From assembly GCF_007995245.1 (NCBI RefSeq), contig NZ_VCBA01000007.1:62001-126000 (forward strand): 64,000 bases of DNA, given 5' to 3'. Below are positions 50,956 to 53,740 of the stretch, in pieces. The stretch is from Tateyamaria sp. syn59 (lineage in GTDB: Bacteria; Pseudomonadota; Alphaproteobacteria; Rhodobacterales; Rhodobacteraceae). Position numbers and translations under genes: made by a program. The notes beneath the pieces were generated by a model. The model was not told where the DNA came from. It made no database searches and worked only from the letters and a program-made list of their open reading frames with translations. Every line of letters starts with the position of its first letter. Position 1 is the stretch's first letter.

Positions 50956-51519
50956 TTAGTCCTGCGGGCTTATGTATGTTTTTGCAATCTTGGTGACCTG
51001 ACCGACGTCCAGCACGGGCGGCAACAGCGTCAGCAGCGCGCCATCCGCGTTCAGCAGATGCACAAAGCTGCCATGCGAATAGATCCACCCGTATTCCGGA
51101 TCCTCAAAAAGCGGCTCAACCTCGACCTTGAAGGCGTCATAGGCAGCCTGCAAAGCGTCTGCATCGCCGGTCAGGCCGATGAAATCCGGATGTATTTCGC
51201 CCAGCGGCGCACCCATCGTCTCCACCCGGTCCTGATCAGGGGCCACCGTGATCATCACCGGGGTGACAGCGATCCCGTCCTGCCCCAGATCATCGACCAC
51301 CTGTGCCATCAGGGGCATCGCTGCCGAACAGATGTTCAGGCAGTTGGCGTATCCAAAGAACACAAGCTGGTACTTACCGTCGGGGTCGGCTTCCGTCCTC
51401 ACCTCACCAAACTGGTCCAGCAGTTCATAGGGCCCGCCGATATCTACAGGGAACGGGCTTTGGCCTGCGGCAGGCATCCCAACCACCACCGAGAACGCGG
51501 TCACAAGAGCGCGCCACAT
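50956..51519 (-). CDS. SCO1/SenC-family protein
   Basis: The 187-residue start at 51519 has an N-terminal hydrophobic signal (ALVTAFSVVVGMPAAGQS), so it is periplasmic or membrane-anchored. The thioredoxin-like core carries FFGYANCLNICSAAMP (C-x3-C metal/redox site) and a candidate ligand histidine in YSHGSFVHLL. Sco proteins deliver copper to, or reduce, the CuA site of cytochrome oxidases. It starts one base after the upstream secreted-protein gene, as the third gene of the operon. Confidence 0.88.
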   Translation of the reverse strand: MWRALVTAFSVVVGMPAAGQSPFPVDIGGPYELLDQFGEVRTEADPDGKYQLVFFGYANCLNICSAAMPLMAQVVDDLGQDGIAVTPVMITVAPDQDRVETMGAPLGEIHPDFIGLTGDADALQAAYDAFKVEVEPLFEDPEYGWIYSHGSFVHLLNADGALLTLLPPVLDVGQVTKIAKTYISPQD

Positions 51520-51520
51520 C

Positions 51521-52087
51521 TCAGAAATTCTCCGCAATCCAGGCTTTGTCCAGCTCCTGGCCCAATCCCAGATAGCCTTCCTCTTCGATGATCGCGGTGA
51601 CACTCGGGTCGCGGCGGAACCACGGGCCTTTTCCCTCGGCCTCCGGATGTTCTTTGGCCCAGGTCTTGGTCCACTGGTTTGCCTTGATCTTTTCGCCACC
51701 GCCCGGCGGCACGATGGTCTGCACCAGATAGACGTTGTTGGCGCCCAGTTCCGGATCCTCCAGCATCAGTCCGTCAACGGTGATCGTCTGGTTGCAAAAC
51801 GGCTGCAACTCGACTGCGGCACCGGTAAAGGCGGGCTGGCTGTTTTTCATCGGCAAGATCAATACGTCATCAGCGGTGCGGATCAGACCAAGCTGCCGTT
51901 TGCCAGCACCGCAATCGTCGGGGCAATCGCCTGTGAACTCACAGATCAGGTCGACGACCGTCGCTTCGAATGTGGCGGGCACCTCGGCATAAAGGTTCCA
52001 GCTGCGCGCCTCCGACCCTTCTGAAAAGTCCTGCGCCATCAAAGGTGTGGCAACCAATGCGCAGATCGCTGTCAAATGCTTCAGCAT
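51521..52087 (-). CDS. Secreted cysteine-motif protein, family unknown (copy B)
   Basis: The 188-residue protein has a signal peptide (cleavage near LMA-QD, about residue 18). The segment VVDLICEFTGDCPDDCGAG followed by KRQLGLI parallels the upstream gene product: DxxCxF[ST]G, then CxxxCxAGxxx[VL]GL[LI]. A further cysteine lies in LQPFCNQT. The pattern suggests an OB-like beta barrel binding a metal or heme through cysteines. It lies two bases after copy A and one base before the Sco-like gene. I know no named function. Confidence 0.7.
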   Translation of the reverse strand: MLKHLTAICALVATPLMAQDFSEGSEARSWNLYAEVPATFEATVVDLICEFTGDCPDDCGAGKRQLGLIRTADDVLILPMKNSQPAFTGAAVELQPFCNQTITVDGLMLEDPELGANNVYLVQTIVPPGGGEKIKANQWTKTWAKEHPEAEGKGPWFRRDPSVTAIIEEEGYLGLGQELDKAWIAENF

Positions 52088-52089
52088 GC

Positions 52090-52557
52090 TCAGTCTCCTT
52101 GCGGCTTCGCGGAAGCGGGGATCGAGAATGGGGGTACATTGCCATAGTCGTCGTGGTTCTGATTGGTGATATCCAGATCAGAAACGACCGCGTTCACAAC
52201 GATGTAGTTCAACCCGTCACGTTCATAAAGCGTGCCGTCGGCTTCAACCGTATGGGCCGCCAGCTTCAGAATGCCGTCGCCGCCTGCGGTCTGATCGTCC
52301 TCGCCAACCTTCAGCACCATGTAGACCGTGCCGTCCTCGGCCAGCAGGCCCACGGGAATACCCCCTGCGCTGCACCACAGCGCGCAGGTGTGATGCGCTG
52401 ATCCCACAACGGCATCCGGGCTGCCCATGACGCCTGAGAAATAGCACCACGTGTCAATGATTTCGCCGGTTACCTGAATGCGCGTGCCCTCTGCCGCCTG
52501 ACCTGCCACGGGCAGGGCGAGCGCAGCCAGCGCGCCAAAAATGAATGATCGCATCAT
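52090..52557 (-). CDS. Secreted cysteine-motif protein, family unknown (copy A)
   Basis: The 155-residue protein has a signal peptide ending near GQA-AEG (about residue 22). Mature features are EIIDTWCYFSG, then AHHTCALWCSAGGIPVGLL, which has two histidines next to C-x3-C. A beta-rich remainder follows (TVYMVLKVG; LYERDGLNYIVVNAVV). The motif order matches the next gene in the operon. The cysteine/histidine set is a plausible metal or heme site. It is the first gene of a three-gene operon ending in a Sco-like gene. Confidence 0.7.
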   Translation of the reverse strand: MMRSFIFGALAALALPVAGQAAEGTRIQVTGEIIDTWCYFSGVMGSPDAVVGSAHHTCALWCSAGGIPVGLLAEDGTVYMVLKVGEDDQTAGGDGILKLAAHTVEADGTLYERDGLNYIVVNAVVSDLDITNQNHDDYGNVPPFSIPASAKPQGD

Positions 52558-52723
52558 GCAGCCTTTCCAAAACGCCTTTCACCTGACGCTGACACGCAGC
52601 ATGCGCTTGGGTCAAATCACGCTTTTCCCGTAAGCACTTTTGTGATCGCTTGGCGCGGGCGTGCGGGTCTGATACCGTTCTGCCCACGAAAGAGGCACAA
52701 CCAAAGCCCGCAGACCCACAGGT

Positions 52724-53740
52724 ATGACCGCACTCAGCAAATATGACCGGCTCGAAGCGACGGGCCTCTGGCGCGCATCAAGCGATGCGCAGCGACGTGA
52801 GGTGATCGTGTCTGTCGGTGATGCAACCCTCGTGATTTCCGACCTGAACGATCGCGCGATCACTCATTGGTCGCTGGCAGCCGTCGAAAAGGGCGAGGCT
52901 CCGGACAAGGGCGGCGCGGCGTATCATCCTGATGGTGATCCCGATGAGGTCCTGGAGTTTGGCCCGGACGAGGCGGCGATGATCGACGCCATCGACACGC
53001 TGCGGCGGGCTGTTGCGCGGTCCCGCCCGAAACCCGGCCGCCTGCGATGGCTGGGGGCCGCTATTTCTATCTCCGCCGTCGCGGCCCTGGCCATCTTCTG
53101 GCTGCCGGGGGCGTTGGTGGATCACGCCATCCGCGTTGTGCCCGCGGTCAAGGAGGCCGAGATCGGGACAGCGCTTCTTGCCCATATCGAACGGGTGTCG
53201 GGCCAACCCTGCAGCAGCATCGAAGCGCGGCCGGGCCTTGTCGCGCTGGCCGGGCGGACCGGGGCGGCCCGCGTCGTCATCCTGCCCGGAGGCGTGCGCG
53301 AGGCGCTGTCGCTGCCGGGCGGCACCGTGTTGCTGAACCGCGCGCTGGTCGAGGATTACGAAGAGCCGGATGTCGCTGCCGGATACATCCTTGTCGAGCA
53401 AGCGCGCAGCATGGACACGAGGCCCCTGCGAAAAGTGCTCGAACATGCAGGTCCGCGCGCCACGGGCACGCTGCTCACCACGGGATCATTGCCCACCCAC
53501 GCGCTTGAGGACTATGCCGAGGACCAGCTTTCGCGTCTCGCGACCGAGGTGCCCGTCGATACGCTTCTTCCTCTCTTCGAGGCGGCAGGCATTCGCAGCA
53601 CGCCTTACGCGCGCGCGCGCGATATTTCTGGCGAGGCAACGCTGGCCCTGATCGAAGCCGATCCGATGGCCGGTCAAACGCCAGCCCCGATCATGCCAGA
53701 CCGGGATTGGCTACAGCTTCAGGCCGTCTGCGAAAGCTAG
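52724..53740 (+). CDS. Conserved hypothetical single-span membrane protein
   Basis: The 338-residue protein has a cytoplasmic N-terminal domain of about 100 residues with a PH-like beta start (REVIVSVGDATLVISDLNDRAITHWSL). One transmembrane segment follows at about 106-130 (WLGAAISISAVAALAIFWLP), then a large extracytoplasmic domain with PGGTVLLNRALVED, as in some peptidase-like folds but without an obvious HExxH. I do not recognise a function. It is convergent with the SPOR-domain gene. Confidence 0.7.
   Translation: MTALSKYDRLEATGLWRASSDAQRREVIVSVGDATLVISDLNDRAITHWSLAAVEKGEAPDKGGAAYHPDGDPDEVLEFGPDEAAMIDAIDTLRRAVARSRPKPGRLRWLGAAISISAVAALAIFWLPGALVDHAIRVVPAVKEAEIGTALLAHIERVSGQPCSSIEARPGLVALAGRTGAARVVILPGGVREALSLPGGTVLLNRALVEDYEEPDVAAGYILVEQARSMDTRPLRKVLEHAGPRATGTLLTTGSLPTHALEDYAEDQLSRLATEVPVDTLLPLFEAAGIRSTPYARARDISGEATLALIEADPMAGQTPAPIMPDRDWLQLQAVCES

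Follow-up and report, generated by a model that had tools for sequence, protein, structure and literature searches.

The stretch of DNA analyzed here (hereafter the window) comprises 64,000 nucleotides of Tateyamaria sp. syn59 (Rhodobacteraceae; contig NZ_VCBA01000007.1, positions 62,001 to 126,000 of the forward strand), and the element under study is a compact minus-strand operon within it. The operon encodes two small cysteine-bearing proteins (gene 1 and gene 2) and a protein of the Sco family (gene 3), in the order gene 1, gene 2, sco (cf. Table 1). An earlier note made from the sequence alone had described the first two as similar exported proteins in tandem with a Sco gene one base away, and this layout proved right, as the three open reading frames (ORFs) are separated by gaps of 2 and then 1 nt. 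A longer version of the Sco ORF starts with a GTG at 51699 and overlaps gene 2; the ATG at 51519 was taken as the start codon, since it fits the relatives. In related loci, overlaps of 4 or 1 nt between the reading frames are common, and the spacing between the genes is mostly -4, -1 or a few nucleotides. Signal peptides had been proposed for both small proteins, and a home-made rule indeed found signal-peptide-like N-termini in 87/87 gene 1, 87/87 gene 2 and 68/83 Sco sequences, the window copies included. The 87 sequences of each small protein, which also underlie the residue counts below, represent 85 distinct loci, with the window copy in and two loci entered twice, while four loci that were relatives without the operon or decayed (L161, L162, L163 and L165) were left out. 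Comparison with four close relatives indicated strong purifying selection on the operon genes, with ratios of nonsynonymous to synonymous differences (pN/pS) of 0.10-0.28. No description of such an operon was found in the literature searched.

Gene 3 was readily assigned. It is an SCO1-SenC protein with a C-x3-C motif, as had been claimed (PF02630, E 5.4e-37, 127 bits against a cut-off of 22.8), and it aligns with human SCO1 and SCO2 (E 3.1e-20 for SCO2), the C-x3-C and the histidine included. The copper ligands C60, C64 and H149 were kept in all 83 sequences, which come from 82 distinct loci. Judged by the gap in E-values, the operon Sco stands apart from the other Sco proteins of the order, as matches beside the pair end at 1.1e-37, while the next best Sco of the order sample gave 1.1e-26. 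At least one Sco match was present in each of the 247 genomes of that sample without the operon, so a general Sco is available where the operon is not; at least two were present in 44 of the 45 genomes with it, the exception (G284) having one.

Genes 1 and 2, by contrast with the Sco partner of a known kind, encode proteins that neither Pfam nor NCBIfam recognizes and that carry invariant candidate metal or thiol ligands. No Pfam match was obtained for either at E ≤ 1, and no NCBIfam model exceeded its cut-off, three matches of gene 1 (E 0.025-0.054) being taken as chance. Sequence searches of the PDB revealed no relative of either protein; those made with the gene 2 profile ranked designed beta-trefoils highest (best E 0.0011), together with fusion proteins, and these were also taken as chance. 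Membership in DUF5818 (PF19135), considered for a likeness of motifs, was rejected: neither gene of the window's own genome gave a match with E ≤ 1. In gene 1, residues C38, H55, H56, C58 and C62 were kept in 87/87 sequences and H135 in 84/87, and the mature part contains exactly three cysteines in every one of the 87. In gene 2, C49, C55, C59 and C98 were invariant (87/87). Both motifs that had been reported as shared occur in the two proteins in the same order: IIDTWCYFSG in gene 1 is matched by VVDLICEFTG in gene 2, and CALWCSAGGIPVGLL is matched, with identical spacing, by CPDDCGAGKRQLGLI.

A direct comparison of the two proteins gave a weak signal (BLASTP, E 0.035, 23% identity over 97 columns). 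Alignment of the family profiles with hhalign, however, returned a probability of 89.5 and an E-value of 2e-6 over 76 columns. When alignments of the mature parts of all fetched relatives were used, the probability was only 27 (E 1.2e-4), with a score of 24.4, where the best of 60 column shuffles reached 11.2; with eight divergent members added to each alignment, the probability was 87 (E 4.1e-6) and the score 40.4 against a shuffle maximum of 23.7 (60 shuffles). Control comparisons with the Sco profile and with a reversed profile were negative. Furthermore, in one genome (G108), the gene 1 query directly matched the gene that occupies the place of gene 2 (E 4.9e-4), and the gene 1 profile recovered two divergent gene 2 proteins out of eight (E 1.1e-4 and 1.3e-5; 1.2e-3 and 3.2e-4 against a larger ORF set). 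The profile alignment placed C38, C58 and C62 of gene 1 on C49, C55 and C59 of gene 2. Genes 1 and 2 are, by these profile comparisons, homologous beyond chance, with a common core of D-x2-C and C-x3-C, and the duplication inferred in the earlier note is borne out to that extent. A likeness of structure is also predicted: the AlphaFold2 models of both proteins share the strand and helix order E-H-E-E-H-E-E, which resembles an oligonucleotide/oligosaccharide-binding (OB) fold, and the gene 2 model had a mean predicted local distance difference test score (pLDDT) of 87.8 and a predicted template modelling score (pTM) of 0.76.

The operon is widespread but patchy. Gene 1 was found in 14/20 genomes of the genus Tateyamaria, the window's own included, and in 45/292 genomes of the order (16/112 genera), while gene 2 was found in those same 45 and as a remnant in G007. 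According to coordinates, an operon-type Sco adjoins the pair in 44 of the 45 genomes, G184 being the exception. Among 80 named loci, genes 1 and 2 lie side by side in all, and Sco comes next in 77; two of the three misses (L110 and L120) are contig ends, and the third (L144, the same as L166), from Palleronia rufa, lacks it. A class-wide sample of 289 genomes contained a gene-1-type protein in 8 genomes from six other alphaproteobacterial families; gene 2 adjoins it in 8/8 of these loci and Sco in 5/8. All three genes are present in G354, which belongs to another family. The core of the operon is the pair of genes 1 and 2, and Sco is a frequent partner that is dispensable as a neighbor. The linkage to sco expected from the earlier note is accordingly conserved in nearly all loci of the order and missing from part of the divergent ones. 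In one congener (G007; L165 5226-5915, G007:C28), no gene 1 was detected, only a fragment of gene 2 is left, and the Sco gene is interrupted and has another residue in place of one of the two cysteines of its motif; this is the pattern that the decay of a single functional unit would leave. A gene-1-like match in G192:C53 (E 6e-4) falls within a TRAP-transporter-like region and was put down to chance. One scan of viral contigs with gene 1 revealed no relative, and tblastn against plasmids gave no gene 1 match. In the divergent locus L224 (7433-7435, G713:C75), an in-frame TGA splits gene 1 at a conserved tryptophan, just ahead of the first of the conserved cysteines, for which a sequencing error and decay are both possible explanations.

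Table 1. Coordinates of the operon, its motifs and associated features (window positions unless a locus is named).
Feature	Position	Strand	Remarks
Gene 1, predicted exported OB-like protein	52090-52557	-	155 aa
Gene 1, D35-x-x-C38 motif	52444-52455	-	Invariant; common to gene 2 and the MsrQ/Rieske-linked relative
Gene 1, H55-H-T-C58-A-L-W-C62 (H-x2-C-x3-C)	52372-52395	-	Invariant; predicted helix 54-64
Gene 2, predicted exported OB-like protein	51521-52087	-	188 aa; C-terminal helical extension, G-x-WFRR motif
Gene 2, D46-x-x-C49 motif	51941-51952	-	Invariant
Gene 2, C55-x3-C59 motif	51911-51925	-	Invariant
Gene 3, Sco (SCO1/SenC)	50956-51519	-	187 aa, ATG start
Sco, C60-x3-C64 copper/redox motif	51328-51342	-	83/83; aligned with SCO1/SCO2
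Upstream element	52610-52647	-	GATCAC 52642-52647; GTGATT 52615-52620 running into a TTGACC -35-like hexamer 52610-52615
Unlinked cluster, own genome	L186 5779-7984 (G000:C2 about 454278-456483)		Small membrane protein, MsrQ-like Ferric_reduct-Rieske fusion, 251-aa protein with gene-1-related C-terminal domain

The neighborhoods of the operon were scanned with Pfam; the set was capped at 150 proteins, which came from 54 of the 80 named loci, after 15 near-duplicate neighborhoods and proteins longer than 700 aa had been set aside. Of the 95 families found, the 25 commonest included NAD kinase (12 proteins), Abhydrolase_2 esterase-like proteins (11), rhodanese (10 of the 150), FrhB/FdhB (9), serine hydroxymethyltransferase (7) and acetyl-CoA synthetase-type AMP-binding proteins (6). 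Within 3.5 kb downstream of the operon, 22/80 named loci have a rhodanese-domain gene on the same strand (PF00581 in one downstream member), and an esterase-like alpha/beta-hydrolase gene follows sco on the same strand in 20/80, which indicates that a longer version of the operon exists (L123, L149, L152 and other loci). The divergent neighbor of gene 1 in the window (52724-53740, plus strand, 338 aa), which has no Pfam match, recurs beside the operon in Tateyamaria loci.

Upstream of gene 1, two hexamers were enriched among 76 of the 85 upstream regions, near-identical ones having been removed: GTGATC occurred in 25 regions against 1.9 expected and TAGGCT in 16 against 0.7, in statistics for motifs that were picked after looking. 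Where a TAGGCT-like -10 hexamer is present, GTGAT[CT] mostly precedes it by 28 or 49 nt, and the difference of 21 nt corresponds to about two helical turns. GTGAT[CT] was found upstream of gene 1 in 47/80 named loci compared with 32/281 ORFs of other neighbor clusters, some of which may be spurious. In the window, the GTGATT is present and no TAGGCT-like -10 was matched in the upstream region, and Tateyamaria loci carry an inverted GATCAC copy further upstream. The GTGAT[CT] element suggests a shared regulator. Patterns of known regulators were rejected: two FNR patterns each gave 0/85, a CRP box 0/85 and an NnrR box 2/85 (shuffled mean 0.66), and the loosest pattern tried, TTG-N8-CAA, occurred in 9/85 regions against 2.5 in shuffles.

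What might the operon do? We consider it quite possible, though short of probable, that genes 1 and 2 encode paired OB-like cysteine carriers of the periplasm, for Cu(I) or thiols, which a dedicated Sco services in most of the genomes that carry the operon. In such a scheme, the reduced C-x3-C and the third cysteine, joined in gene 1 by H55, would provide a site for Cu(I) or some other soft metal, and Sco, by analogy with the Sco of Thermus, would keep the carrier thiols reduced or swap copper with them. Gene 1 and gene 2 could then hand the metal (or electrons) to an extracytoplasmic client. Gene 2 has four cysteines and an additional C-terminal region, and of the two it might be the one that binds the client or serves as acceptor. 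The full set of C, C and H ligands in all 83 Sco sequences makes a role in copper handling plausible. An odd count of three cysteines, as in gene 1, would be unusual for plain disulfide-stabilized periplasmic proteins, and this count, the ligand-complete Sco and the C-x3-C with a third cysteine and H55 argue for metal or redox-active thiols over structural disulfides. The copper relay of the earlier note survives in part, with the homologous exported pair, the invariant cysteines and the Sco linkage on its side.

Several observations weigh against a pair of carriers serviced by Sco: (i) the pair is kept without an adjoining Sco in three of the eight divergent loci and in Palleronia rufa, so that an obligatory three-part relay, as first proposed, is too strong; (ii) in the divergent loci, F replaces H56 in one gene 1 protein (L226) and C98 in one gene 2 protein (L224); (iii) the model of gene 1 is only moderately confident (pLDDT 74.5, pTM 0.65); (iv) structure searches returned generic OB folds only (Foldseek, best E 0.022; VIA, Z ≤ 6.9), and the fold therefore adds nothing on function, although the absence of a family from these match lists is no evidence against that family; (v) in the 25 commonest of the 95 neighbor families, no oxidase, cuproenzyme or client was recognized; (vi) the downstream rhodanese would suit a role in thiol or sulfur chemistry alone just as well; and (vii) PrrC, a Sco of Rhodobacter, is, going by the title of a cited reference, reportedly a thiol-disulfide oxidoreductase.

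The last two points belong to a metal-free alternative, in which Sco would reduce C-x3-C disulfides and the OB-like proteins would carry reducing equivalents or shield a periplasmic thiol substrate. Such a thiol-disulfide or sulfur relay is in keeping with the C-x3-C found in all three proteins, and also in the MsrQ-linked relative described below. It is a strong rival of the carrier pair, although rather unlikely in itself: it gives no obvious need for keeping H149 of Sco (83/83) or H55 and H56 of gene 1 (87/87), and 58 of the 80 named loci, some of them cut by contig ends, have no rhodanese gene downstream.

Returning to the carrier pair, the gene 1 query also matched a second class of proteins, in which the related sequence forms the C-terminal domain of a protein of about 250 aa whose gene adjoins that of a protein with Ferric_reduct (PF01794) and Rieske (PF00355) domains. 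The window's own genome has one such cluster, unlinked to the operon (cf. Table 1). Its Ferric_reduct-Rieske protein is weakly MsrQ-like (NF003831, E 4e-8, below the cut-off), the small membrane protein and the 251-aa protein gave no NCBIfam match, and three relatives of the latter gave no Pfam match. The relative matched gene 1 profiles at E 1.2e-8, or 1.6e-11 with divergent members added, and gene 2 profiles weakly at best (E 0.9, or 0.001 with divergent members added); eight aligned sequences share G-E-x2-D-x2-C ... A-H-x2-C-A-x2-C-x2-G-x2-P. We offer as a tentative possibility that the two small operon proteins and the MsrQ/Rieske-linked domain constitute an undescribed superfamily of periplasmic OB-like carriers with a three-cysteine core (C + C-x3-C), which evolution would have plugged into two settings, namely a Sco-serviced soluble pair for copper or thiol delivery and a heme/2Fe-2S membrane complex. 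In L161, L188 and L189 (G186, G354 and G022), the MsrQ-like cluster also has fusions of Rieske with a glutamate-synthase domain and of Rieske with a thiamine-pyrophosphate enzyme, and three Rieske-bearing proteins in one cluster are an unusual set (L188 by Pfam, L161 and L189 by eye). An esterase similar to that downstream of the operon was seen by eye near the MsrQ-like cluster in L228.

The operon might also be an accessory or assembly factor of this MsrQ-like/Rieske complex. The relative (E below 1e-20) occurs in 31/292 genomes of the order and together with the operon in 23, that is, in 23/45 operon genomes compared with 8/247 others (Fisher's test, 2e-15); it is present in 19/20 Tateyamaria genomes, G354 of another family has both, and 10 of the 13 genera with the relative also have the operon (p 3e-8). 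Permutation within genera, on the other hand, gave a p-value of only 0.019, and 22/45 operon genomes are without the complex. In the class sample, G638 is the sole genome outside Rhodobacteraceae to have both, among 8 genomes with gene 1 and 11 with the relative. In the flanks of the 80 named loci, which were searched over at most 6 kb on either side (19 loci are shorter than 12 kb), no MsrQ-like/Rieske ORF (phmmer, E ≤ 1e-10) and no ORF with the related domain (E ≤ 1e-12) was found. Since the association is weak outside the family and the clusters do not adjoin, a common niche is a serious alternative to direct cooperation, and a role of the operon in building this complex appears decidedly unlikely.

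A module for assembling CuA or NosZ, and hence a respiratory enzyme, would suit the partner, as Sco proteins are known CuA assembly factors (PMC6696091). We nevertheless give little credence to it: no oxidase is among the 25 commonest neighbor families, and a general Sco is available in 247/247 genomes without the operon. The nitrous-oxide-type copper centre envisaged in the earlier note finds no support either: nosZ (PF18764) does not track the operon, being present in 8/45 operon genomes and in 5/35 hand-picked operon-free genomes of the same genera, and it was not found in the window's own genome. SBP56 methanethiol oxidase was likewise rejected as a client, as it occurs in 20/20 genomes of the genus, operon or not. 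The heme handling suggested as a second option, with a pair resembling the OB-fold heme chaperone CcmE, gained no positive evidence beyond the OB-like topology and is very improbable, given conserved residues that are rich in cysteine, a Sco partner that points to copper or thiols, and no Pfam match, the CcmE profile included, at E ≤ 1.

For many Sco genes, no client is known. The operon ties Sco to two unrecognized proteins across Rhodobacteraceae and several other alphaproteobacterial families, and it offers a small, genetically tractable system of three genes for asking whether Sco reduces, metallates or does both. The relation of gene 1 to the domain encoded next to an MsrQ-like/Rieske membrane protein suggests a family that is wider and has no name yet.

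Among known systems, gene 3 is a member of the Sco/SenC family (human SCO1/SCO2, Blr1131), with its C-x3-C and histidine, and differs in its setting, as no oxidase family was seen beside the operon Sco in the 25 most frequent neighbor families. Sco genes beside copper proteins other than respiratory oxidases are known from the mtoX-sco-mauG operon and from the iox cluster (ioxA-F) (PMC5739008 and PMC9415286). The operon is like them in that its Sco is tied to genes other than those of a respiratory oxidase and unlike them in that no SBP56, MauG or multicopper oxidase family is among those 25 families. The working analogy is the PCuAC/Sco module for CuA, a soluble periplasmic carrier plus Sco: in Thermus thermophilus, Sco reduces the CuA cysteines and PCuAC inserts the copper, and PCuAC is cupredoxin-like with Met/His ligands (PMC6696091), whereas genes 1 and 2 are predicted to be OB-like with conserved cysteines. 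Neither protein matched a PCuAC or a CusF/SilF family profile (Pfam, E ≤ 1). The Cu(I)/Ag(I) chaperones CusF/SilF and the OB domain of NlpE are periplasmic OB folds; an OB-like strand order is predicted for genes 1 and 2, and the structural matches of the gene 2 model to SilF (Z 4.8) and NlpE (Z 5.5) are within the range of unrelated OB folds. CusF binds its metal through Met, His and Trp, where genes 1 and 2 have cysteines. The MsrQ/Rieske-linked domain is homologous to gene 1 and shares D-x2-C ... H-x2-C-A-x2-C-x2-G-x2-P with it; it differs in being part of a protein of about 250 aa with an N-terminal hydrophobic segment, in its heme/2Fe-2S rather than Sco context, and in a fourth cysteine in Rhodobacteraceae.

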